From positions 1 to 32,642 of the forward strand of contig JACOWC010000086.1 in NCBI GenBank assembly GCA_016177005.1: 32,642 nt of DNA, written 5' to 3'. The position numbers were made by a program, and so were the translations under genes. Of this stretch, positions 3,275-29,408 are shown in pieces. The notes below the pieces were generated by a model, which saw nothing but the letters and a program-made list of their open reading frames with translations, did no database searches and was not told where the DNA came from. Every line of letters starts with the position of its first letter. Position 1 is the first letter of the stretch. This stretch comes from Methylocystis sp. Lineage in GTDB: Bacteria; Pseudomonadota; Alphaproteobacteria; Rhizobiales; Beijerinckiaceae.

Positions 3275-3766
3275 ATGTCCGACCCCTTCGAGCGGAAAAT
3301 TTACGAAGCGCGGCTGACGCCGCACCGGTCGATGACGCCGCACGCTTTCTGTCTTTTCATCCTGATATTCTGTCTCGGCCAGGTCCTGTTTGCATTGCCT
3401 TTCTTTTTCATGGGGGCCTGGCCGGTCGCGGGCTTCATGGGCCTTGATGCGCTTGGCCTGTATCTCGCCTTTCGCGTGAGCTTCAAGGCCGCGCGCAGCC
3501 ACGAGACGCTCGATCTCACGCCGCTCGAACTCGTCTTCGCTCAGATCGGCGCGCGCGGGCAGCGAAGGGAGTGGCGGTTCAATCCGTCCTGGGTGCGGCT
3601 CGAGCAGACTGTGCATGAAGAATTCGGCACCGAGCGGGTGGCCCTGGTTTCGCGGGGCGAAACGGTCGAAATCGGCGCCTTTTTGGGGCCGGACCAGAAG
3701 GCGGAGCTGGCGCGCGACCTCAATCGCGCGCTCGTCGACGCGCGAATGGGCGCGCGTTTCGGCTAG
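3275..3766 (+). CDS. DUF2244 integral membrane protein
   Basis: This 163-residue protein has two hydrophobic segments, about residues 24-42 and 46-66, followed by a soluble C-terminal domain with the family-typical RFNPSWVRLE at about 101-110. That pattern identifies DUF2244, an alphaproteobacterial inner-membrane family of unknown function often found next to nth, as here. GGAGGAG lies 14 bases before the ATG and a second GGAG lies very close to it. The TAG stop (3764-3766) falls inside the CTAG terminus of the adjoining repeat. The function is unknown. Confidence 0.85.
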   Translation: MSDPFERKIYEARLTPHRSMTPHAFCLFILIFCLGQVLFALPFFFMGAWPVAGFMGLDALGLYLAFRVSFKAARSHETLDLTPLELVFAQIGARGQRREWRFNPSWVRLEQTVHEEFGTERVALVSRGETVEIGAFLGPDQKAELARDLNRALVDARMGARFG

Positions 3767-3880
3767 AGCGCGCCGCGAAAAAGCGGAGCCCGATTTTTCG
3801 CGTAAAGCGCGCTCTAAACTTTTGAGATCGATCACGTTATCTGCATTTGGTCGATTCCGCCCAAATGCAGCGTGATCTAG
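3763..3880 (+). repeat. CTAG-ended mosaic repeat, type B, copy 1
   Basis: This 118-base element contains two hairpins. The first has AGAGCGCG and CGCGCTCT outer arms with GCGAAAAA/TTTTTCGC inside. The second has GATCACGTTATCTGCATTTGG pairing imperfectly with CCAAATGCAGCGTGATC. The ends are CTAGA and TCTAG. Other copies are at 12663-12781 (same orientation) and 28054-28172 (inverted). Its left CTAG contains the DUF2244 stop codon. A type A element follows immediately, so the two form a composite. Confidence 0.85.
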
Positions 3881-7850: not shown

Positions 7851-9008
7851 ATGGCCAAGAAGCTGATCATTTTCTGCGACGGCACTTGGAACGAGTTGAC
7901 CGCGCGGGGCACCAACGTTCTGCGGACGTTGCAAGCCATCGAGAGCGCCGATGTTGGCGGCGCGAACCCGCAACTCGTGCATTACATCGCAGGCGTCGGC
8001 ACGCGGCGCGGCGAAAAAATCAGGGGCGGAACTTTCGGTTATGGAATCTCAGACAACGTCAAGGATGCTTATTCCTTTCTTGTGAGCAATTACGAGGAAA
8101 AGGACGAAATATATCTTTTCGGCTTCAGCCGCGGCGCCTTTACGGCGCGCAGCATAGCCGGTCTGGTGCATAATCTCGGCATTCTCAAGCGATGCAAAAT
8201 GCCGCTGACGTCGATCGCCTACGGACATTACAAGGACAAGTCGGACGGCTGGCGGCCGAAGGGCGCGGACGCCATACAGTTTCGAAGCGACTACTGCCAT
8301 CCCGGGCCGGTGAAGATCCGCTTTCTCGGCGTCTGGGACACCGTCGGCGCTTTAGGCGCGCCTTATGGCGAATTCCTGGGTTATCTCGTCGACAAACTGT
8401 TCGGGTGCAGTTTTCATGATGTGACGTTAAGCGAGAGCGTCGACAGCGCCTATCACGCCTTGGCCGCCGATGAACGGCGCTGGCCGTTCCGTCCGACGCA
8501 CATAGAGCTCACCGACTACCATCGGCAGCGAAACGAGAAGAATTTGGCGGAAAACAAATTTCCGCTCTACAAGCAAAAATGGTTTCCTGGCGTGCATTCC
8601 AATGTCGGCGGCGGCTACGGTCGGTATGGACTGTCGGATTGCGCCCTGGAATGGATCGTGGAGTGTGCGCGCCTGAACGGCCTTAATATCAGGCCGCTGG
8701 AAAAAGCGGAATTCTCCGAAGATCGCCTTTTCAAAAAGGACAATTCAGAACCCATCGAGAAGAGCCAGAAGCTCTATTACCAGCTGCTGACGGCGGCTTT
8801 TGTCAAAGCGCCCTCGCTTCTTGGGATCAAGTCGGTCTATCCGCGCGGGGACGCTGAACTCGTCAGAAACCTCACTTGGCGCGGGGAATATATTCGTCCG
8901 ATTGGACCGGATGAGGACATGGACGCAGTGCTCGAAAAGCGCAAGGTCGATAAAGAATACGACAAAATGTGGAGCGATCTCGACGGAACGCGAACTCGCG
9001 GCGCGTGA
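7851..9008 (+). CDS. DUF2235 alpha/beta-hydrolase-like protein
   Basis: This 385-residue protein belongs to the DUF2235 family, which includes the Tle1-type phospholipase effectors as well as many chromosomal proteins of unknown role. Visible motifs are an N-terminal DGTWN (residues 10-14), the nucleophile elbow GFSRG at 91-95 with probable catalytic S93, GVWDTVGALG in the middle, and PGVHSNVGGGYG, which probably carries the catalytic histidine. AAGGAG precedes the ATG by about 8 bases. No signal peptide, membrane segment, immunity-like partner or type VI secretion gene is nearby, so an intracellular esterase or lipase role is more likely than an effector. The substrate is unknown. GC content is slightly lower than in the neighbours. 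Confidence 0.85.
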   Translation: MAKKLIIFCDGTWNELTARGTNVLRTLQAIESADVGGANPQLVHYIAGVGTRRGEKIRGGTFGYGISDNVKDAYSFLVSNYEEKDEIYLFGFSRGAFTARSIAGLVHNLGILKRCKMPLTSIAYGHYKDKSDGWRPKGADAIQFRSDYCHPGPVKIRFLGVWDTVGALGAPYGEFLGYLVDKLFGCSFHDVTLSESVDSAYHALAADERRWPFRPTHIELTDYHRQRNEKNLAENKFPLYKQKWFPGVHSNVGGGYGRYGLSDCALEWIVECARLNGLNIRPLEKAEFSEDRLFKKDNSEPIEKSQKLYYQLLTAAFVKAPSLLGIKSVYPRGDAELVRNLTWRGEYIRPIGPDEDMDAVLEKRKVDKEYDKMWSDLDGTRTRGA

Positions 9009-12662: not shown

Positions 12663-12781
12663 CCAGAGCGCGCTCGCGAAAAAGCGGAACCCGGTTTTTC
12701 GCGCAAAACGCGCTCCAGGCTTTTGGAATCGATCACGTTATCCGCATTTGGGCGATTCCGCCCGAATGCGGCGCGATCTGG
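12663..12781 (+). repeat. CTAG-type mosaic repeat, type B, copy 2
   Basis: This 119-base copy has the same two-hairpin structure as 3763-3880. Its ends are CCAGA and TCTGG instead of CTAGA and TCTAG, so both ends changed yet remain complementary. The last bases (CTGGGAG) run into the likely ribosome-binding site of purH (GGGAG, about 6 bases before its ATG). Confidence 0.85.
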
Positions 12782-16738: not shown

Positions 16739-19003
16739 CTACAACGGCACGCCGCGCGTGATCGCATACTCGCGCAATTGCTCGCGCACGGAAGCGCTGC
16801 CGTCATCGGACGCGAGCAGCGAGGCGAGATACACCTGCGCCTCTTCGAGATCGAGATTGAGGATCATTGTCTTGACCGGACCGATGGCGGAAGCCGCCAT
16901 AGACAGCGATCGATAGCCGATGCCGAGCAGCGCCAGCGCCTCGAGCGGGCGTCCGCCCATCTCGCCGCAGAGCGTCACCGGCGCGTTGTGCCGCGCGCCG
17001 GCATCGACGATGCGCTCGAGCGCGCGCAGTACCGGCCGGGAGAGATTGTCGTAGCGCTTCGAAACGCGGGTGTTGTCGCGGTCGGCCGCATACATGTATT
17101 GAACCAGGTCGTTGGAGCCGACCGACAGGAAATCCGCGCGCTCGGCGATAAGATCGATTTCCCACAGCAGCGACGGCACTTCCACCATGGCGCCGAGCGC
17201 GATGCGCGTCGGCAGGGGATGGTGGTGGCGCGTGATATGTTCGAGCTCACGCAGCGTAATCGCTTTCGCCGCGTCGAATTCGGCGACATTGGCGATCATC
17301 GGAAACATGATGCGCAGATCGCGATCGGCGCCGGCCTTCAGCATCGCGCGCAATTGCATGCGCAAGAGGCCCGGCCGGTCGAGGCCGATGCGGATCGCGC
17401 GCCAGCCGAGCGCCGGATTTTCCTCTTCGATCTTCGCCATATAGGGGAGGATCTTGTCGGAGCCGATGTCGAGCGTGCGGAAGGTAATCGCCTTGTCCGG
17501 CGCCGCGTCGAGCACCGCTTTGTAGAAGCGGTATTGCTCGTCCATGCGCGGAAAGCGCGGCGCAAGCATGAATTGCAGCTCCGTGCGAAAAAGGCCGATC
17601 GATCGGGCGCCGGTCTCCTGCAGATGCGGCATGTCGATCGCAAGGCCGGCGTTCATTTGCAACGTGATCTCGACGCCGTCCTTGGTGACCGCCGGCACGT
17701 CGCGAAGCTTTGCGTATTGCTCCTGACGCCGCGCCCGCAGCCGAGCCTTTTCGGCATAGGCGCTCTGCACGTCGGGCTGTGGGCGAACGTGCACTTCGCC
17801 GGTCGTGCCGTCGACGATGATCGGATCGCCGGTTTCGACGATGTCGATCAGGCCGGGAACCAGCCCCACGGTGGCGATGCCGAGCGCCCGCGCGACAATC
17901 GCGACATGGCTGGTCGGTCCGCCTTCCTCCAGCACGAGTCCGCGTAGCCGCCTTTGATCGTAGTCGAGCAGCGCCGCCGGCCCCATCGTTCGCGCCACGA
18001 TGATGGCGTTTTCCGGCATGCTGTCGCGGTCGGCGACGTAGCTTTGACCCGTCAGCTGATGCAGCAGCCGGTTGGCGATGTCGTCGAGGTCGTGCAGGCG
18101 GTCGCGCAGATAAGGGTCGGTTTGACGGTGCATGCGCGCGCGCGCGTCGTTCTGGACCCGCTCGACCGCCGCCTCCGCCGTCAAGCCGGTCATCACCGCC
18201 TCGCGCAAACGGCGCACCCAGCCGCGGTCGTAGGCGACCATGCGCACGGTTTCGAGGATGTCGCGCGGCTCGCCGGCGGCGATGCGGTCGCTATGCGCGA
18301 CGAGCTGGTCAATCGACTGGCGCATCGCGTCGATCGCATGTTCGAGCCTGGCGAGTTCGGCGGGCATGTCTTCGGCGATAAGCTGCTTGATGACGACGCG
18401 CGGCTCATGCAGCAGCACATGGCCGAGACCGACGCCTTCCGCCATCGGGACGCCCTTGAGCGAGGCCGGACGATAAAGCGCGAGATCGCGCGGGTCTTCA
18501 ATCGCTTGAAGTTCGCCCGAAGCGATAAGCTCGGCGAGCAGCATCGCCGTCGTCTGCAGCGCCTCGATCTCTTCTTCCGAATAGACGCGGCGCACCTGGT
18601 TCTGCACGACGAGCACGCCGAGCGTGTTGCCGCCGCGCAAAATCGGCACGCCGAGGAAGGAGTGATAGGCCTCTTCGCCCGTCTCAGGCTTGTAGGAGAA
18701 CGCAGGATGCTCCTGCGCTTCCGAAAGGGCGAGGGGCTCGGCGCTCTTCGCGATGAGGCCGACAAGGCCTTCGCCCGCATGCATCGTGGTCAGGTGCACG
18801 GCCTCGCGGTTGAGGCCTTCCGTGGCGTAAAGCTCCAAGCGTTGGTCGGCGCGCAGTACATAAACAGAACAAACTTCGGCGACCATATTCGCGGCGATCT
18901 GCACCACGATCTTGTCGAGCCGCGCCTGGGCGCTGACCGATTCCGCGCTGATTTCGCGGAGTCGGCGCAGCAAAAGGCGAGGGCCGCCGAGAGCGCTTCG
19001 CAT
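16739..19003 (-). CDS. ptsP: Phosphoenolpyruvate-protein phosphotransferase of the nitrogen PTS (EI-Ntr)
   Basis: EI-Ntr takes phosphate from phosphoenolpyruvate and passes it to NPr and then EIIA-Ntr, a regulatory relay linked to nitrogen and potassium balance. The 754-residue protein has an N-terminal GAF domain (about residues 15-165), which senses small metabolites in relatives. It is followed by the EI N-terminal domain with the phospho-accepting H366 in [18 protein letters not shown]. The TIM-barrel PEP-binding domain carries [27 protein letters not shown] and the catalytic cysteine in TLCGEMGG. Length and motif order are normal. The ATG at 19003 is preceded by GGGAACGG. prfA follows in the same direction. 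Confidence 0.97.
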
Positions 19004-19316
19004 CCAATCCGTTCCCGTTTTCCTAGAATTTCGCGGGTGGCCTGCCGCAAAAAACCGCCATGCGCCTGTAGATTGCGACAGTGGCTCTCAAGCAGCGTAT
19101 ATTGACGCCGTCGGCGCTCCGCAAGCGCGGCCAAGAAACGCAGCGACGCAAGGAATATACCGTTATAGCAAAGCTTGGCGAATCGGCTTGCAGGCGCGGC
19201 TGGAAGCCTCTACCAGTTGCACATCAAAGTCTGGCGATGACTGCCCACGCGCTTGGCGCCCGCCACCGGCCGCGCGAGACGCGTTCTCCGAGCCTGCGGC
19301 ATCGAGAAGAGAATTC
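19004..19316. other. Divergent intergenic region between ptsP and the PAS-GGDEF-EAL gene
   Basis: This region separates the ptsP start from the GTG start at 19317 and should contain both promoters. Open frames crossing it are not conserved-looking. No clear operator or hairpin was recognised. Confidence 0.5.
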
Positions 19317-22086
19317 GTGCGTCTGAAAAAATATCTGATCGCTCTCTTATTGCTCATCGCATCCGCTCAGGCCGTGGCCATGGAGTCCGTCAGAGTGCCG
19401 CAAGGCGCGCGGGCGATCGATCTGACGGGCGTCGTCGAGAACCATTCTTCGCAGGGCGACCGGCTGCAGGTTTCGACTGCGCCCGGCTCGGACGGCATCG
19501 TTCGACGCATCGAGGTCGGCGCCAAGGAAGCTGGCAGTCAGCCCAACTGGATCGTATTCGCGCTCACCAACGACACGGACGAGCAGATCGAGCGCCTCAT
19601 CGTCGCGCCGCATTACCGTCTGCAGGGCTCGGGCGTCATCTGGCCCGATCTCGGTTCGACGCGCATCACGGCGATTACGGCGAGCCAGGGATTTCCGCCA
19701 GAAGTCATGGACGCTTCGGACGCGGACATTTTCCGGCTGACGCTCGACCCCGGAACGACGGTCACCTATGTCGCAGAGCTGCGCACGCCCAACCTGCCGC
19801 AGGTCTATTTGTGGGAGCCCTCGGCCTATAAGGACAAGGTGACGAGCCTGACGCTGTACAAAGGCATCGTCATCGGCATCGCCGGCCTGCTCGCGCTGTT
19901 CTTGACGATCGTCTTCGTGGTGAAGGGCGCGGTCATTTTTCCGGCGGCGGCGGCGCTCGCCTGGGCGGTCCTCGCCTATGTGTGCATCGATTTCGGCTTC
20001 TGGGACAAGATTTTCGGCTTCGACGCCAACGCCAACAGCATCTGGCGCGCCGGCGCCGAAACCATCCTCTCGGCGACGCTCGTCGTTTTTCTCTTCGCCT
20101 ATCTGAACCTCAACCGCTGGCATGTGCGCGCCTGGCATGTCGCGGCGCTATGGCTCTTGATCCTGCTCGACCTCGTCGGCCTCGCGGTGTTTGACGCGCC
20201 GGTCGCGGCCGGCGTTGCGCGCATCTCGCTCGCCACGGTCGCCGTCGTCGGCTTCGTGCTGATCCTCTACCTCGCGACGCACGGGTTCGATCGGGCGATC
20301 ATGTTGATACCGACATGGTTCCTTCTGGCCGTCTGGGTGGCGACGGCGGGATTTGCCGTCGCCGGCTGGATCACCAACGACCTCGTGTCTCCCGCGCTTG
20401 TCGGCGGCCTCGTCCTCATCGTGATGCTGATCGGCTTCACGGTGATGCAGAACGCCTTCGCCGCAGGCGGTCTGTCGCATGGCGCGATCAGCGACGTCGA
20501 GCGCAAGGCCCTCGCGCTCACCGGCGCCAATGAGATCGTGTTCGACTGGGACGTTCCCTCCGACCACATCTATGTCAGCCCCGAAGCTGAAGCGGCGCTC
20601 GGCCTCGACCGCGGCGGGCTCGAAGGCGCCGCCTCCTCATGGCTCGATCTGTTGCATCCCTTCGAGCAGGACCGCTATCGCGCTTGTCTCGACGCCATCC
20701 TCGAGCAGCGGCGCGGACGCATTAACCAGGTCTTTCGCCTGCGCGCCGCGGACGGCCACTATCTCAGCTACCGGCTGCGGGCGCGGCCAGTGGTCGGCCC
20801 CGACGGCGAAGTGATTCGCGTCGTCGGCACGCTCAATGACGTGACCGACGAACGCAACGCCCAAGAGCGGCTGCTGCATGACGCCGTGCACGACAATCTC
20901 ACCGGCCTGCCGAACCGTGAATTGTTCTTCGACCGTCTCGAGGCCGCCCTGATTCTTGCGCGCATGGAAAAGGACGTGCGCCCGACAATCCTCGTGATCG
21001 ATATCGACCGCTTCAGGCAGATCAATGAGCAGGTCGGCATGGCGATGGGCGACAGCATTCTGCTGACCGTCGCGCATCGCCTCACCAGGCTGCTGCAGCC
21101 CCAGGATACGCTGGCGTCCGGTGCGCTTCACCGATCGCGAGATCGCGCTGTTCGCCTCGATCGGCATCGCGCTCTATGACCAGCAGATCCATCCCGGCGC
21201 CGCTGAAATGCTGGAGGACGCCGAAATCGCGATGCGTCACGCCAAGCGCTCGGGCGGCAACCGCATCGAAGTGTTCCGCCCGGCCATGCGCGCGCAACGC
21301 TCCGATCGCGTGACGCTTGAAACCGATATGCGGCGGGCTCTGGAACGCAGCGAGATCAAGGTTTTCTTCCAGCCGATCGTCCGGCTCGAGGATCGCACCA
21401 TCGCCGGCTTCGAAGCGTTGCTGCGATGGGATCACCCGCGCCTTGGCCGGCTCGAGCCTTCAGAATTCATACCGGTCGCCGAGCAGACGGGCCTGATCGT
21501 CGACCTCGGACTTCTCGCGCTGGAGCGGACGGCGCGCGAACTCGCGGCGTGGCAACGCGCGCTTGCCGTAGATCCGCCGATCTTCGCCTCGGTCAATATT
21601 TCGTCGCGCCAGCTCTTGCGGCACGACCTTCTGCGCGACGTAAAAAGCGTGTTGATGCGCAATGATATCATCAAGGGCAGCCTCAAGCTCGAACTGACTG
21701 AGAGCCTGGTGATGGAAAATCCCGAATACGCCGCGCAGATGCTGATGCGCCTCAAGGAGCTCGGCGCGGGCCTTTCGCTCGACGATTTCGGCACGGGCTA
21801 CTCGTCGCTCGCCTATTTGCAGCGTTTCCCTTTCGACACGGTCAAGATCGACCGTTCCTTCATCAAGCAGTCCGGCAAGGGCGCGCGCCCGATCATTCTG
21901 CGCTCGATCATCGCGCTGGCGCAGGACCTCGGCCTCGACGTCGTCGCCGAGGGCGCGGAGACCGAGCAGGACGCGATCGAGCTTTATCAACTCGGCTGCG
22001 GCTACGCGCAGGGCTACGCCTTCGGCCGCCCGATCAGCGCGCGGGATGCAAGGCGTCTTGTTGGCGCAGCGCCGGAAGCGGCTTAG
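19317..22086 (+). pseudogene. Membrane-anchored PAS-GGDEF-EAL cyclic-di-GMP protein, broken by an internal deletion
   Basis: This gene would encode a cyclic-di-GMP enzyme of about 970 residues. The GTG at 19317 follows GAGAAGAG and starts a signal peptide (LKKYLIALLLLIASAQAVA). A periplasmic beta-rich region follows to about residue 180, then about eight membrane segments, a PAS domain (TGANEIVFDWDV) with its C-terminal motif, and a GGDEF domain beginning HDNLTGLPNRELFFDRL. After QPQDTLA (21116) the reading frame changes: the first frame stops at 21177-21179, while the other resumes at [21 protein letters not shown]. The stretch that should hold GG(D/E)EF, about 40-50 residues, is absent, so this is a deletion plus frameshift. 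The EAL domain is complete ([43 protein letters not shown]) and would be a phosphodiesterase if translated. Confidence 0.88.
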
Positions 22087-25126: not shown

Positions 25127-25777
25127 TTAAACGGCCCTTGTTCCCGGCGTGTCGTCCTTCCGATAGGCCGTGCCGAACACGTAATCCCACCAGATTGCAT
25201 GCACGCCGAAGCCTCTCTCGGCGTCGCGGAAATGATGCAGCATGTGCAGCCGCTTCACGAAGCGGGCGAAGTCCGTTTTCGGCTGCCCGTGATGCGTCCA
25301 GTAATGCACGCAATCATAGATCACATAGCCGGCGATGAATCCGGCGAGCACCGGCCAGGCGAAGGTCGCGCCGAAGATCAGGCGGGCGCAGGCGAGCGCG
25401 ATCAGCGTGATCGGACCCGAGAGCAGCGGCGGCATGACGAGCCGCAGCGGATCGTTGGGATAGATGTGATGCACGCCGTGGATGAGAAACTGAAAGCGCG
25501 GCCCAAGCCCGAAAGGCAGCGCAAACACCGTATGAAAGAGATAACGGTGGCCGAAATATTCGGTGAGCGTCCAGCCGATATAGCCGATGACGAGGCCGAG
25601 AAGAACAAGAGCCGGACCGTTGAGCGTGAGCGAATAGATCAAGAGACCCAGAATGATCGGGCAATAGATGACTACCGGCGTCAGGTGATGGACCCGCGAC
25701 AGTCTGTCGAGGAGATCGCTGTCAAAGAGGCGGGGCGAGGCGTCGAGCGCTTCTGCTTTTGTTGCTTCCTGGGTCAT
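25127..25777 (-). CDS. Sphingolipid fatty acid 2-hydroxylase-like protein (FA2H/Scs7 type, sterol desaturase superfamily)
   Basis: The 216-residue membrane protein belongs to the di-iron fatty acid hydroxylase superfamily and most resembles eukaryotic Scs7/FA2H, which put an alpha-hydroxyl on the N-acyl chain of ceramides. The histidine clusters are EYFGHRYLFH at 73-82, HGVHHIYPNDPLRLVMPP at 100-117, YDCVHYWTHHG at 154-164, and LHMLHHFRDAERGFGV at 177-192 followed by WWDYVFGT. Four membrane segments are visible (about 34-50, 56-70, 118-136, 142-158). The cytochrome b5 domain that precedes the catalytic domain in Scs7/FA2H is missing, so an external electron donor is required. It begins 3 bases after the desaturase stop and is last in the cluster. 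Specificity is inferred from motifs and neighbours. Confidence 0.82.
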   Translation of the reverse strand: MTQEATKAEALDASPRLFDSDLLDRLSRVHHLTPVVIYCPIILGLLIYSLTLNGPALVLLGLVIGYIGWTLTEYFGHRYLFHTVFALPFGLGPRFQFLIHGVHHIYPNDPLRLVMPPLLSGPITLIALACARLIFGATFAWPVLAGFIAGYVIYDCVHYWTHHGQPKTDFARFVKRLHMLHHFRDAERGFGVHAIWWDYVFGTAYRKDDTPGTRAV

Positions 25778-25780
25778 GGC

Positions 25781-26776
25781 CTACTCCGCCGGCGCTATGG
25801 CGTGCGCTTCGCGCGCCGCCGCTTGCGTGACATTTTCCGAGCGCGTTCCCAGCGAATAGGTCGGATCGAAGATGAAGGTGACGAGCAGAGCGAACCAGGA
25901 GCGATGGCAGCGCAGATCGTCATAAAACTCCGGCGCCATCGCTTTCAGCTCAGGCAGACGATTCCACGGGATCTCGTGAAAATCGTGGTGCTCGTTGTGA
26001 TAGCCGATGTTGAGCGCGAGCGTGTTGAGCGGGCCGTAGTAGTCGAACGTCCCCTGGTCGGGCCCGAAGGCGAAATGCTCCTGCAGCCAGCGCGCGCTTA
26101 AAGGATGCAGGCCGCCGACCGAGAACCAGAAGGAGAAGAAGAGATAGAGCAGGGCGTTCCATCCGAAAGCCCAGAGTACGAAAAGATCGAAGAGGGCGAT
26201 GACGGCGATATTGATATAGGTCCAGGTTCCCCAGATCGGCACCGTGCCTTTGAGGCGCGACAGACGCGCAAGCTGAATGGCCGGAAAGAAGAAGAGCCAG
26301 ACCGCTTTGCGCCAGGCGCTATTGCCGACCCATTCAACTTCCCAGCGGCTGGGGATGTCGGCGTCATAGTCGTAAGCCGAGAGATGCGAATGATGCTTGA
26401 TGTGATAGCAGCGAAAGCCCATCGCGGTCGGAAAGGCGTTGGGAAGATCGGCGAGGATCGCCGTCCATTTATTGGCGAGCGGGCTCTCGAAGACGCAATT
26501 GTGGATCGCGTCGTGAATGATGACGAAATTGGCGTGATTGGCGAAGGCGCCGACGCAGATCGCCATCAACAGCGACAGCTGCCAATAGGAGACGCCAAGC
26601 GAACCTAGAATGGCGGCGATAAGAAGCTGACCGACGAAAATCGCCGCCGTGATCTTGAAGGTCACGGGGTCCCTGCCGAAGAGCTCGCGCGCTTGCGGAT
26701 ATTTCTCGAGGATCAGCCTGCGCCGCTCGACATGCGTTCGGTCGGCGCCATTGGCGGTGACGGATATTCCGTTCAT
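25781..26776 (-). CDS. Dihydroceramide delta-4 desaturase-like protein (DEGS1 family)
   Basis: This 331-residue membrane di-iron enzyme closely follows animal DEGS1, which makes the 4,5-trans double bond of dihydroceramide. The N-terminus has THVERRRLILEKYP where DEGS1 has PHADRRREILAKYP, the family's N-terminal lipid desaturase motif. Histidine boxes are HDAIH (88-92), HIKHH (125-129) and HNEHH (260-264). The block YYGPLNTLALNIGYHNEHHDF at 246-266 is nearly that of the animal enzyme, and GLHPLSARWLQEHF (222-235) corresponds to GLHPISGHFIAEHY. Membrane segments lie at about 41-60, 66-86, 158-170 and 186-222. Its ATG overlaps the TGA of the upstream acyltransferase (ATGA), indicating translational coupling. 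Electron donors are not encoded nearby. Activity on ceramide is inferred. Confidence 0.88.
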   Translation of the reverse strand: MNGISVTANGADRTHVERRRLILEKYPQARELFGRDPVTFKITAAIFVGQLLIAAILGSLGVSYWQLSLLMAICVGAFANHANFVIIHDAIHNCVFESPLANKWTAILADLPNAFPTAMGFRCYHIKHHSHLSAYDYDADIPSRWEVEWVGNSAWRKAVWLFFFPAIQLARLSRLKGTVPIWGTWTYINIAVIALFDLFVLWAFGWNALLYLFFSFWFSVGGLHPLSARWLQEHFAFGPDQGTFDYYGPLNTLALNIGYHNEHHDFHEIPWNRLPELKAMAPEFYDDLRCHRSWFALLVTFIFDPTYSLGTRSENVTQAAAREAHAIAPAE

Positions 26777-27987
26777 GACGTTGCATCCTGTAGCTGAGTT
26801 GCCCTGACGCCCTCGCGCATACGCATCGCTTCATCGCCGCCGCCGACGGCGAGGCGCTTTTCATAAATGCGATGAATCTTGTCGACCTTGCCGCCGAACA
26901 TTTCAATCGGCCGGCGCATGTTGGCGTTGCTCTCCAGCACCCAGCCGGCTTCAAGATGCGGAACGGCGAATTTCGCATACCGCCGCCGCATCTCCTCGAT
27001 CAGCGCAAGAAAGATCGCGCCGCCGGTCGCGCTTTTTTGCAGCGTCTTGCGCGTGCCGAGCAACAACAGCCGCGCCGACTTGAACTGGTGCGAGCGGTAT
27101 CGCCTGATCGCGCGCAGCCAGCCGAAGGGCAGCAGGCGGCCGTCGAGATCGGCGAGAATCTCATTGAGATTGGGAAGCGCGATCGCGAAAGACTGCGGGA
27201 CGCCGTCAAGCTCGACGACGATGCCGAAATCCTCGGTCACCAAAAATTGCAGCGCGTCGGCGTCGGAATCGAACTCTTCCCTGGTGAAGGGCACGAACCC
27301 CCAATTTTCGCTCCAGCCGTCGTTGAACAGCTCCGCCATCAAGGCGGTTTCGCCCTTCTTCAGGGCCTTCATGTTCAACGGCCTCAGCTTCAGGCGATTG
27401 CGCCATTCGCGCCGCGTCGAAATGCGCGCGGGCTGGTCGATATCGTCGCTTGAAATTTCGAAGCGATAGGACAGGAGGTCCTGCGCCTTCTCATAGCCCA
27501 GCGCCTCGATATGGCGCGAGAGATAGGGCGGATGCCAGGGCATGAAGAACATCGGCGTGGCGTCGAAGCCATCGACGAGCAGGCCGCACTCCTTGTTGAT
27601 CGTCGGCGAGAAAGGACCGTTGATCCGCTCAGCGCCCTTGGCGCGCAGCCAGTCCTCGGCGGCCTTCGTCAGCGCGCGCACGACCTCGATATCGTCGACG
27701 GCGTCGAGCGCGCCGAACTGCGCATTGGAGGCGCCGACCGGCGTGATCTCGGGCTTATAGATCTGCGCCATGATCCGCCCGACCCATTGGCCGTCGCGGC
27801 GGGCGAGAAATTTCTGCTCCTCGACAAGCCTGTAATGCGGGTTGAGCTTATGGGCGAAGACGCTCCAGCGTTCGACGTCGAGCGGCGGCGCAAAGCCCGG
27901 CGCGTCGGCGTAGAGCAGCCGCGGCAGTTTGCAAAAGGCCGCAAAGCGCAAAGGGCCGTCAACCGGAAGAATCTCGATCCGCGCCAT
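26773..27987 (-). CDS. GNAT-type N-acyltransferase, probable bacterial ceramide synthase
   Basis: The 404-residue protein belongs to a family often labelled 'N-acetyltransferase' or misnamed 'dATP pyrophosphohydrolase'. It has two GNAT-like halves. The N-terminal half includes LRAKGAERINGPFSPTIN and ECGLLVDGFDATPMFFMPWHP. The C-terminal half ends with the typical HLEAGWVLESNANMRRP, GGKVDKIHRIYEKRL. The bacterial ceramide synthase of Caulobacter is a GNAT-superfamily protein unrelated to eukaryotic ceramide synthases; from its position between a serine palmitoyltransferase-like gene and a ceramide desaturase, I infer the same reaction here, acylation of the sphingoid base amine. No membrane segment is seen. 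AGGAC precedes ATG 27987. The stop overlaps the desaturase start by 4 bases. The fold is fairly sure, the substrate is not. Confidence 0.72.
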   Translation of the reverse strand: MARIEILPVDGPLRFAAFCKLPRLLYADAPGFAPPLDVERWSVFAHKLNPHYRLVEEQKFLARRDGQWVGRIMAQIYKPEITPVGASNAQFGALDAVDDIEVVRALTKAAEDWLRAKGAERINGPFSPTINKECGLLVDGFDATPMFFMPWHPPYLSRHIEALGYEKAQDLLSYRFEISSDDIDQPARISTRREWRNRLKLRPLNMKALKKGETALMAELFNDGWSENWGFVPFTREEFDSDADALQFLVTEDFGIVVELDGVPQSFAIALPNLNEILADLDGRLLPFGWLRAIRRYRSHQFKSARLLLLGTRKTLQKSATGGAIFLALIEEMRRRYAKFAVPHLEAGWVLESNANMRRPIEMFGGKVDKIHRIYEKRLAVGGGDEAMRMREGVRATQLQDATS

Positions 27988-28053
27988 GATCCAAGTCCTA
28001 GCGGCTGCAGGGCCTTATTCGAAAGCGTCAAAGTGACGCGGGAGGTCGGGCGG

Positions 28054-28172
28054 CTGGATCACGCTACGTTTGGGCGTAATCGCCCAAACGCAGATAACGT
28101 CATCGATTCCAGAAAGTTAGAGCGCGCTTTGTGCGAAAAACCGGCGTCCGCTTTTTCGCGCGCCGCGCTCTA
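28054..28172 (-). repeat. CTAG-ended mosaic repeat, type B, copy 3 (inverted)
   Basis: This 119-base copy is in the opposite orientation to 3763-3880 and 12663-12781, with the same two hairpins. Its CTAG end (28169-28172) contains the TAG stop of the serine palmitoyltransferase-like gene. It splits that gene from the downstream acyltransferase by 182 bases and could weaken or separate expression within the cluster. Confidence 0.85.
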
Positions 28173-29408
28173 GCCGCCCGCCATCGCGGCGGCGACGATC
28201 TGATGCGCCTCTTCCGTCACCGGCGGCATGTCGCGCAGCGCCTGGATGACGCCGCGGATTTCCGCTTCGTTATGATTGGCGGAGAAGAAGAAGCGCAGCC
28301 GCGGCCCGTCCTTCGGCACGCCGATGCGCACCACCGGGGGAACGTAATAGCCGTTCGCCAGCAAATGCTGAGACGCCCACATCGTCTCGACGTCGCTCGA
28401 AAACAGGATCGGCACGACGCCGCGGCCGATCGCTGGCCCGGTGGAGAAGCCCGATTCATGCGCGACCGTGCGAAAGAGCTCGGCGTTGCTCGCGAGTTTG
28501 GCGATGCGCCACGTCTCCTCCTGCATCAGCCGCAGCGCGGTGCGCGCGGCGGCGAGAATGACCGGCGACAGGCCGACGCTGTAGACGAAGCCCGGCAGCG
28601 TATAGCGGAACCAGTCGATGACCTGCTTCTTGCCGCAGACATAGCCGCCGCAGGACGCGAGCGTTTTCGACATGGTGCCGACGATGAGGTCGATGCGCGC
28701 GGGGTCGACGCCCTGATGTTCGGCGAGACCGCGGCCCGTCGCGCCCAGGACGCCGAGCGAATGCGCTTCGTCGACCAGGAGCCAGACCTGGTATTTTTCC
28801 TTGATCGCCAAGAGGCGCGGCAGGTCGGCGGTGTCGCCGTCCATGCTGTAGACGCCTTCGACGACGACCAGGACGTTGCGATATTCCTCGCGATGGCGCG
28901 CGAGCAGATGATCGAGATGGTCGAAGTCGTTGTGGCGGAACTTGATGACTTGAGCCGGCGCGCCGTCGGCGCCGGCGACGATGCTGTTATGGGCGAGTTC
29001 GTCGATGAAGATCGCGTCGCGCTTGCCGCTCATCAGCCAGGCGATCGTCGTGACGTTGGAGAGATAGCCCGAGACGAGGGTCAGCGCGCTTTCCATGCCA
29101 AGGAATTCGGCGATCTCGGCCTCGAACGGCCGATGCGTCGTGCGCTCGCCGCCGACAAGCCTTGAGGCCAGAGCGCCGATGCCAAGCCCATCGATCTCGC
29201 GCTTCGCCTCCTCGCGAATCCGAGGGTGATTCGCCAGGCCGAGATAGTCGTAATTGGCGAAGCTGACGAAATGCTTGCCCTGCGCCTCGAATTCGGCCCG
29301 CAGCCGGTCGATCTGAGCGAAAAACGGATCGCTGAACTCCAGCAAGGCGTTGCCAGCGAAACGGAACCGTCTTGCCGCATAATCCTCTAGGCTCTTATGC
29401 TTCGTCAC
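28170..29408 (-). CDS. spt: Alpha-oxoamine synthase, probable serine palmitoyltransferase
   Basis: Enzymes of this PLP-dependent family condense an amino acid with an acyl thioester; serine plus palmitoyl-CoA or acyl-ACP gives 3-ketosphinganine, the first step of sphingolipid synthesis. The 412-residue protein shows SFANYDYLGLANHP (49-62), a probable PLP-stacking histidine H140 in DELAHNS, DEAHSLGVLG (213-222) with the ring-nitrogen aspartate D213 and H216, and the Schiff-base lysine K248 in GTMSKTLASCGGYVCG. The start is GTG 29408 with only a weak ribosome-binding site. The wider family includes BioF, Kbl and HemA. No biotin, threonine or heme genes are near, while ceramide-type acyltransferase, desaturase and hydroxylase genes follow, so serine palmitoyltransferase is the best call. 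The final stop lies in a repeat end. Confidence 0.82.
   Translation of the reverse strand: MTKHKSLEDYAARRFRFAGNALLEFSDPFFAQIDRLRAEFEAQGKHFVSFANYDYLGLANHPRIREEAKREIDGLGIGALASRLVGGERTTHRPFEAEIAEFLGMESALTLVSGYLSNVTTIAWLMSGKRDAIFIDELAHNSIVAGADGAPAQVIKFRHNDFDHLDHLLARHREEYRNVLVVVEGVYSMDGDTADLPRLLAIKEKYQVWLLVDEAHSLGVLGATGRGLAEHQGVDPARIDLIVGTMSKTLASCGGYVCGKKQVIDWFRYTLPGFVYSVGLSPVILAAARTALRLMQEETWRIAKLASNAELFRTVAHESGFSTGPAIGRGVVPILFSSDVETMWASQHLLANGYYVPPVVRIGVPKDGPRLRFFFSANHNEAEIRGVIQALRDMPPVTEEAHQIVAAAMAGG

Follow-up and report, generated by a model that had tools for sequence, protein, structure and literature searches.

A two-locus gene set for putative eukaryote-style ceramide synthesis and tailoring in Methylocystis and other Beijerinckiaceae

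Does a methanotroph of the Alphaproteobacteria carry the genes to make ceramides that are tailored in the manner of eukaryotes? According to the accessible part of PMC12724326, bacterial sphingolipids are in general simple, chiefly for want of the glycosyltransferases and desaturases that would make higher forms. The question is raised by a stretch of 32,642 nucleotides from Methylocystis sp. (family Beijerinckiaceae; contig JACOWC010000086.1 of assembly GCA_016177005.1), called the window here in its full length; it makes up contig C70 of a metagenome-assembled genome of 2.06 Mb and 65% completeness (MAG; loci, genomes and contigs are cited below by our own L, G and C labels). The closest desaturase relatives of the host are Methylocystis strains (identity up to 96%), and the host would be a type II methanotroph, to judge by the named strains among these relatives. 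A preliminary description of the window had placed a synthase, an N-acyltransferase, a desaturase and a hydroxylase of ceramide metabolism in that order on one strand, and four uninterrupted minus-strand open reading frames (ORFs) do occupy positions 25127-29408 in the order described. The features of the region, including the pyridoxal phosphate (PLP)-dependent synthase, are as follows:

28170..29408, minus strand: PLP-dependent alpha-oxoamine synthase, putative serine palmitoyltransferase (SPT); 412 aa, GTG start; assigned from Aminotran_1_2 and PDB matches
26773..27987, minus strand: tandem-GNAT N-acyltransferase, putative bacterial ceramide synthase (bCerS); 404 aa; assigned from homology and an AlphaFold2 (AF2) model
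25781..26776, minus strand: sphingolipid delta4-desaturase-like protein (DES); 331 aa; assigned from Lipid_DES and FA_desaturase
25127..25777, minus strand: Scs7/FA2H-type fatty acid 2-hydroxylase-like protein without a cytochrome b5 domain; 216 aa; assigned from PF04116 and an alignment with Scs7
28054..28169, minus strand: copy of a dispersed repeat of ~116 nt, directly 3' of the synthase stop codon in the synthase-GNAT gap

We consider it likely that the four genes supply the core and the tailoring steps of a sphingolipid pathway encoded at two loci, which is present in Methylocystis, Methylosinus and a large number of other Beijerinckiaceae. A dedicated acyl carrier protein (ACP), with a ketosynthase (KS) and a MaoC dehydratase from the second locus, would provide a long acyl chain, which the PLP synthase would join to serine to give 3-ketosphinganine; a short-chain dehydrogenase/reductase (SDR) of the second locus, rather than the reductase CerR, would reduce the ketone; the tandem-GNAT enzyme would N-acylate the sphingoid base; DES would introduce the double bond between C4 and C5; the Scs7-like enzyme, where it occurs, would hydroxylate C2 of the N-acyl chain; and the second-locus glycosyltransferases GT21 and GT2 would attach sugars to C1. 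By analogy with eukaryotes, the delta4-desaturation and 2-hydroxylation steps should take place on or alongside the formation of ceramide. Each of these reactions is a prediction, as are serine as the substrate, the order of reduction and acylation (a point that is disputed for Caulobacter, according to the accessible part of PMC11087976) and the product. The preliminary description had proposed that this bacterium makes delta4-unsaturated, 2-hydroxy ceramides; at the level of the genes we find support for that interpretation, and the system appears to be a new version of the bacterial route to sphingolipids, in which the set of eukaryote-like tailoring genes is unusually complete.

This reading is drawn from what was observed directly: which genes are present, their domains, the conserved order and the co-occurrence. 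A scan of species genomes with the desaturase gave 593 candidates and at least 576 confirmed stretches, from which the best 80 loci were kept (L058/L209, L070/L244 and L089/L211 are duplicate views of one place). Synthase, GNAT and desaturase stand in the same order and on the same strand in 54 of these 80 loci, and all four genes are present in 36, the hydroxylase lying directly downstream in 36 of the 54 with the three-gene order and thus not being universal, as judged within the fetched loci. Among 199 genomes of the family, the desaturase was found in 53, spread over 10 of 43 genera, at a threshold of E 1.1e-28 or better (12 genomes with weaker matches only were set aside as having other desaturases); GNAT is directly upstream on the same strand in 48 of the 53, and the synthase accompanies it in 46 of those 48. 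The carriers include cultivated, named strains, i.e., Methylosinus sporium, Methylocystis rosea, Methylocella silvestris and Methylocapsa acidiphila; the loci of the Methylocystis and Methylosinus strains contain the hydroxylase. Close homologues of the partners follow the desaturase: GNAT at 52% identity or more in 51/53 desaturase genomes versus 0/146 others, the synthase (at least 50%) in 52/53 versus 2/146, the second-locus SDR (at least 53%) in 49/53 versus 0/146, and GT21 (at least 41%) in 50/53 versus 0/146. Several counts detract from this pattern. When any GNAT match is admitted, all 53 desaturase genomes have one and so do 10 of the 146 desaturase-free genomes, in which the match is more distant; a close SDR is missing from four of the 53 (G009, G050, G102 and G168) and a close GT21 from three (G102, G168 and G172). 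The identity thresholds of 52, 50, 53 and 41% were placed at visible gaps once the lists had been seen, and some matches are fragments at contig ends; because of this, and because relatedness was ignored, the co-occurrence indicates inheritance as a set and gives no number of independent events. Fisher p values, which take no account of relatedness, were set aside. Outside the family, homologues that are 32-56% identical are clustered in Verrucomicrobiota, with all four genes in L091, desaturase, synthase and GNAT in L100, and desaturase, synthase and hydroxylase in L110.

The acyltransferase ties the window to a known bacterial system, the ceramide pathway of Caulobacter crescentus (spt, acpR, cerR, aasR and cerS/bCerS), with which it has in common a PLP synthase, a related tandem-GNAT N-acyltransferase and a dedicated ACP, encoded here in the second locus. 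The GNAT protein has no Pfam or NCBIfam match at E <= 0.01, and phmmer against PDB returned just weak ribosomal matches (E 0.08 and worse). Its AF2 model, built from 18 sequences (pLDDT 81.7, pTM 0.81), matches tandem GNATs in Foldseek (5kf1, E 6e-12, query TM-score 0.56, 13% identity), with N-myristoyltransferases lower down. GNAT matches (E <= 1e-3) occur in 41 of 289 genomes of the class, the host's included, the others at 29-41% identity, and 20 of these neighbourhoods, compared by clustering, contain a synthase homologue in 10 cases and a CerR-like protein in six. One of them, L160, was examined gene by gene: its GNAT homologue (38% identical to that of the window) is accompanied by a PF04116 protein, an NTP transferase, an SPT that exceeds its curated cut-off (NF047599, 586 bits vs 500), and ACP-like and CerR-like proteins (the labels LptF/LptG, ACP, CDP-alcohol phosphotransferase, kinase and phosphoesterase were assigned by eye), in an order that resembles the arrangement described for Caulobacter and its relatives in the accessible part of PMC11324152. 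The GNAT of the window, which the preliminary description had called a probable ceramide synthase, is best read as a putative bacterial ceramide synthase, homology to bCerS being judged through this homologue in a Caulobacter-type sphingolipid locus and not through the Caulobacter protein itself. In the known cases covered by the accessible part of PMC11324152, Caulobacter-type cerS is always in an operon other than that of the remaining ceramide genes, whereas here GNAT follows the synthase on the same strand, and cotranscription of the two is possible. In a class genome from a different family (G233, L158), an SDR, a GNAT, a PF04116 hydroxylase and a synthase are clustered at 32-45% identity.

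The preliminary description supposed that the ketoreductase would come from elsewhere in the genome, and what we find there is a candidate of another kind than CerR. With a CerR model derived from five loci, no orthologue was found in ten genomes, i.e., the host's own and nine named genomes of Methylocystis, Methylosinus, Methylocapsa, Methylocella and Beijerinckia, the best hits scoring 104-127 bits; the control genomes gave 276.8 and 331.7 bits in two cases outside the model and 497 in one used to build it, and the second-best hits of the three controls (102-110 bits) are near the values of the ten genomes. CerR was likewise not found in G224, a further genome with a bCerS homologue (84 bits). 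Several Beijerinckiaceae loci have a set consisting of ACP, KS, MaoC dehydratase, SDR and glycosyltransferase convergent with synthase-GNAT-DES; in Methylocystis and Methylosinus the same set is found elsewhere in the genome, with an added GT21 between the SDR and GT2. In L209 (= L058), this second locus, ACP-KS-MaoC-SDR-GT21-GT2, forms one unbroken set that is convergent with the four genes; in Methylocapsa acidiphila (L244/L070), GT21 is the next gene after DES and has the same orientation; and in Beijerinckia mobilis, DES is found at the MaoC-SDR-GT locus, whereas synthase and GNAT stand together elsewhere. The SDR of the host genome, which bears YxxxK and GxxxGxG motifs, lies with ACP, KS and MaoC near the end of contig C160, and contig C53 begins inside GT21 and continues with GT2; this division of the second locus over two contigs of a 65%-complete MAG counts somewhat against the arrangement proposed for the host. 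We regard the SDR as a candidate ketosphinganine reductase. The explanation that competes best with this assignment, although we hold it to be rather unlikely, is that the SDR is the ketoacyl reductase of its KS, MaoC and ACP neighbours, the sphingoid ketone being reduced by an unrecognised enzyme or a diverged CerR. In its favor, and to the detriment of ours, the SDR of Methylocystis, Methylosinus and other loci has KS, MaoC and ACP as neighbours, a KS adjoins SDR and GNAT in L215, KS, ACP and MaoC adjoin GNAT in L216, and 3-oxoacyl-ACP reductases appear among the SDR hits. It is opposed by three loci (L214, L217 and L158) in which a distant SDR (42-45% identity) has distant homologues of synthase and GNAT as neighbours and stretches of 9-13 kb gave no match to KS, MaoC or ACP, and by the CerR model itself, which finds nothing clearly above an epimerase background. 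These SDR-synthase-GNAT neighbourhoods say more on function than do the co-occurrence counts.

With its glycosyltransferases, the second locus suggests that the products are glycosylated. The GT21 of the host genome matches PF13506 at 154 bits (cut-off 21.7), and that of L209 aligns with the ceramide glucosyltransferase 26qs over 350 residues (E 2.3e-30). HpnI-type GT21 proteins of hopanoid synthesis belong to the same Pfam family and also match ceramide glucosyltransferase, and a result unfavorable to our assignment is that the host genome's other, HpnI-like GT21 (a 341-aa stretch) fits 26qs better (E 2.7e-41), although neither reaches the HpnI cut-off of 310 bits. Since this control scored higher, the match to 26qs was dropped as direct evidence of ceramide glucosylation and is taken as compatible with it, and the argument for GT21 is made from linkage, co-occurrence and an identity gap. 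Unlike HpnI-type GT21, the second-locus protein is linked to the SDR and, in one genome, to DES; the L209 protein is 28% identical to the HpnI-like copy of the host genome; and identities are 41-66% in the DES genomes (the query's own aside) versus at most 34% among the listed matches elsewhere (E <= 1e-50). By linkage, then, the second-locus GT21 is a candidate ceramide glucosyltransferase.

The synthase is where the preliminary description, which had called it SPT-like, holds in part. It matches Aminotran_1_2 (Pfam, E 2.1e-46), and its top PDB matches are the serine palmitoyltransferases 8guh and 3a2b (E 4.4e-61), with Kbl, BioF and others close behind. The stretches GTMSK, DELAHNS and VDEAHS line up with those of 47 relatives, and the lysine in GTMSK and the histidine and aspartate stretches, which we take to be the PLP-binding and catalytic residues, are conserved. 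In a 48-row tree, a clade of 22 rows (support 100/97) unites the window clade with intermediate genera and with a more distant, second synthase, and it is separate from the remaining paralogues in these genomes, so that, rather than falling with BioF/Kbl, the synthase has a supported clade of its own; plain BioF/Kbl identity was rejected on this basis. On SPT identity by curated models and by the tree, several results tell against our reading. The protein misses all NCBIfam cut-offs for SPT, BioF, Kbl and ALAS, with 290 of 500 bits for NF047599, 273 of 640 for NF047600 and 204 of 670 for NF047603; its best NCBIfam model is BioF (341.7 of 426 bits); the synthase of the verrucomicrobial locus L091 is likewise below every cut-off; the GTxSK motif is also present in paralogues (L175, L176 and L182-L184); and the window clade is not joined with support to Caulobacter-type SPT in the 48-row tree, which is made up without an experimentally proven SPT. 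The designation as a putative SPT is thus drawn from context rather than from the protein alone. The host genome holds two further synthase paralogues, with ALAS-like and BioF-like motifs by eye. The second, more distant synthase (~41-47% identity) is found in family genomes with and without the desaturase (L214, L218-L221 and L172-L174); its neighbour in L214 and L220 is a GNAT (~30%), in L214, L218, L219 and L221 an SDR lies within a few kb, and these loci probably belong to a related lipid pathway.

This placement of the synthase gives room to an improbable alternative, namely that the products are sphingolipid-like but not ceramides, the synthase using alanine (1-deoxy products), cysteate (sulfonolipids) or glycine while the same tailoring enzymes act on what it makes. 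The low scores with all SPT models and the clade of its own would fit such a substrate, as would the presence of the cysteate C-fatty acyltransferase 28eh (E 1.7e-43) among the PDB relatives, and 1-deoxyceramides and relatives are reported from the Black Sea in the accessible part of PMC11334938. Serine palmitoyltransferases remain, however, the best structural matches (E 4e-61), and a 1-deoxy base would offer no C1 hydroxyl to the second-locus GT21 and GT2.

The desaturase matches Lipid_DES, which Pfam names after sphingolipid delta4-desaturases, at 32.4 bits (cut-off 23) and FA_desaturase at 82.1 bits. In an alignment of the window protein with 18 relatives picked from the 80 loci (Beijerinckiaceae, Bacteroidota and Verrucomicrobiota), the histidine boxes H88xxxH92, H125xxHH and H260xxHH are invariant and Lipid_DES matches at E <= 1e-3 in all 19, so that the earlier assignment as a DEGS1-like delta-4 desaturase holds at the gene and domain level. 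The third box lies in the stretch HNEHHDF, presumably also that of human DEGS1; phmmer against PDB gave no match at E <= 1. A carotenoid or plain fatty acid desaturase was considered and rejected, since the carotenoid models lie far under their cut-offs (CrtR 31 of 475 bits, CrtW 24.8 of 350) and Lipid_DES is above its own. A different activity within the same fold, that of a C4-hydroxylase or of a mixed desaturase/hydroxylase comparable to animal DEGS2, which would yield phytoceramide-like products, is in our judgment quite improbable. In its favor, desaturases and hydroxylases of this fold interconvert. For Caulobacter, the accessible part of PMC11324152 credits acyl hydroxylation to a DesA-type desaturase/hydroxylase. 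The name of Lipid_DES argues for delta4-desaturation without being decisive, as DEGS2-type enzymes share the domain.

Members of the desaturase family are also found in Bacteroidota (L092-L099, L101-L105, L107-L109 and L111), 48-52% identical to that of the window and with Lipid_DES in those scanned; the flanks fetched with these loci gave no synthase or GNAT homologue at E <= 1e-20. Of ten Bacteroidota genomes that bear the desaturase, eight have an alpha-oxoamine synthase protein that a curated SPT model scores at 486-674 bits, and in one of the ten the score exceeds the cut-off of 640.

The last of the four genes was described earlier as an Scs7/FA2H-like 2-hydroxylase, and its domain bears this out: FA_hydroxylase (PF04116) is matched at 57.2 bits (cut-off 31), and among solved structures phmmer aligns the protein with yeast Scs7 (4zr1, E 1.6e-23), with which it has the stretch HGxHHxxPxDxxRLVMPP in common. 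Ten histidines are invariant among 11 aligned hydroxylases, and the homologues of the verrucomicrobial loci L091 and L110 have most of that stretch. We place the window protein with hydroxylases of the Scs7/FA2H sort because it holds this stretch, which is absent from the PF04116-type proteins beside bCerS homologues in L150, L155 and L160. The cytochrome b5 domain that is N-terminal in yeast and animal Scs7/FA2H, and absent from plant forms, had no match in the 216-aa protein in a Pfam scan, for which reason the protein is filed solely as an Scs7/FA2H-type hydroxylase domain. It is hardly credible that the four genes are housekeeping functions (a BioF/Kbl-type synthase with a fatty acid or carotenoid desaturase and hydroxylase) brought together by chance, since BioF, although the best NCBIfam model of the synthase, scores below its cut-off, as do CrtR and CrtW on the desaturase, Lipid_DES is above its own, the host genome has other synthase paralogues, one of them BioF-like, and the set is common to so many genomes and genera of the family.

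Viewed against the eukaryotic pathway (SPT, KDSR, CerS, DEGS1, FA2H/Scs7 and UGCG), the two loci have a putative counterpart for each step. The likeness is carried by Lipid_DES on the desaturase, the Scs7 alignment of the hydroxylase and the ceramide glucosyltransferase alignment of GT21. Differences are evident as well: eukaryotic CerS is a TLC-domain protein and SPT a two-chain enzyme, whereas here the N-acyltransferase is a GNAT and a single synthase gene is present; the hydroxylase is without cytochrome b5; and there are ACP-KS-MaoC neighbours. Compared with Caulobacter, the system of the window adds DES, the Scs7-like hydroxylase and GT21, and has the candidate SDR where Caulobacter has CerR. 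An SDR-type reductase of a bacterial sphingolipid pathway is known from Bacteroides thetaiotaomicron (KDSR BT_0972, in the accessible part of PMC9278070), to which ours is likened by class. The literature searched, which mostly leaves subscription papers outside its coverage and is in part accessible only as excerpts, gave no report of sphingolipids or ceramides in Methylocystis, methanotrophs or Beijerinckiaceae kin, a silence that weighs against our reading; it also gave no match for Beijerinckia with serine palmitoyltransferase or for dihydroceramide desaturase in alphaproteobacteria, and no bacterial delta4-desaturase among the papers listed on bacterial sphingolipids and desaturases.

Within the window itself, the GNAT and desaturase ORFs share 4 bp and the desaturase and hydroxylase are spaced by 3 bp, and because of this overlap and spacing the three are probably cotranscribed as one message. 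The synthase and GNAT are 182 bp apart, 116 bp of which are the dispersed repeat, a copy that probably lies outside the pathway. The G+C content is 64% in the synthase, 62% in GNAT, 59% in the desaturase and 60% in the hydroxylase (window 63%); a promoter scan found nothing, and terminator-like sites numbered 9 versus a mean of 4.0 (sd 2.4) in shuffles. The repeat, the two halves of which match each other in inverted orientation, also occurs at 3765-3880 and 12672-12778 of the window, the copy at 28054-28169 being inverted. Counting short half matches, there are 49 matches in the 2.06-Mb MAG and 15-46 in three Methylocystis genomes, and none in one Methylosinus and one Methylocapsa genome. The synthase-GNAT gap is ~60 bp in L033 and ~175 bp in L036, and because of this difference in length the repeat copy may occur in some strains only. 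Elsewhere in the window, a GGDEF-type ORF (18912-21179) overlaps an EAL-type ORF (21121-22086) in another frame, and the pair (18912-22086) looks like one gene broken by a frameshift or an assembly error; an ORF at 7851-9008 resembles a DUF2235 hydrolase (labels by eye). Quick ORF calling is noisy where DNA is GC-rich, and the gene positions that matter were relocated by tblastn.

More tentatively, and at somewhat less than even confidence in the two parts taken together, we suggest that type II methanotrophs and many Beijerinckiaceae have a complete, co-inherited, eukaryote-style glycosylceramide pathway (ACP-KS-MaoC supply, SPT, SDR ketoreductase, bCerS, delta4-desaturase, 2-hydroxylase in some, GT21 and GT2), and that the bacterial DES family, which extends to Bacteroidota and Verrucomicrobiota, may be the source or the sister of eukaryotic delta4-desaturases. 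The candidate genes for tailoring are conserved and inherited together in strains that have names and are in culture, which puts the claim within reach of lipidomics. If it is true, the membranes of methanotrophs would contain a new class of lipids, possibly of use as a biomarker, there would be a reductase route without CerR, and the bacterial members of the DES family would bear on the origin of eukaryotic sphingosine.

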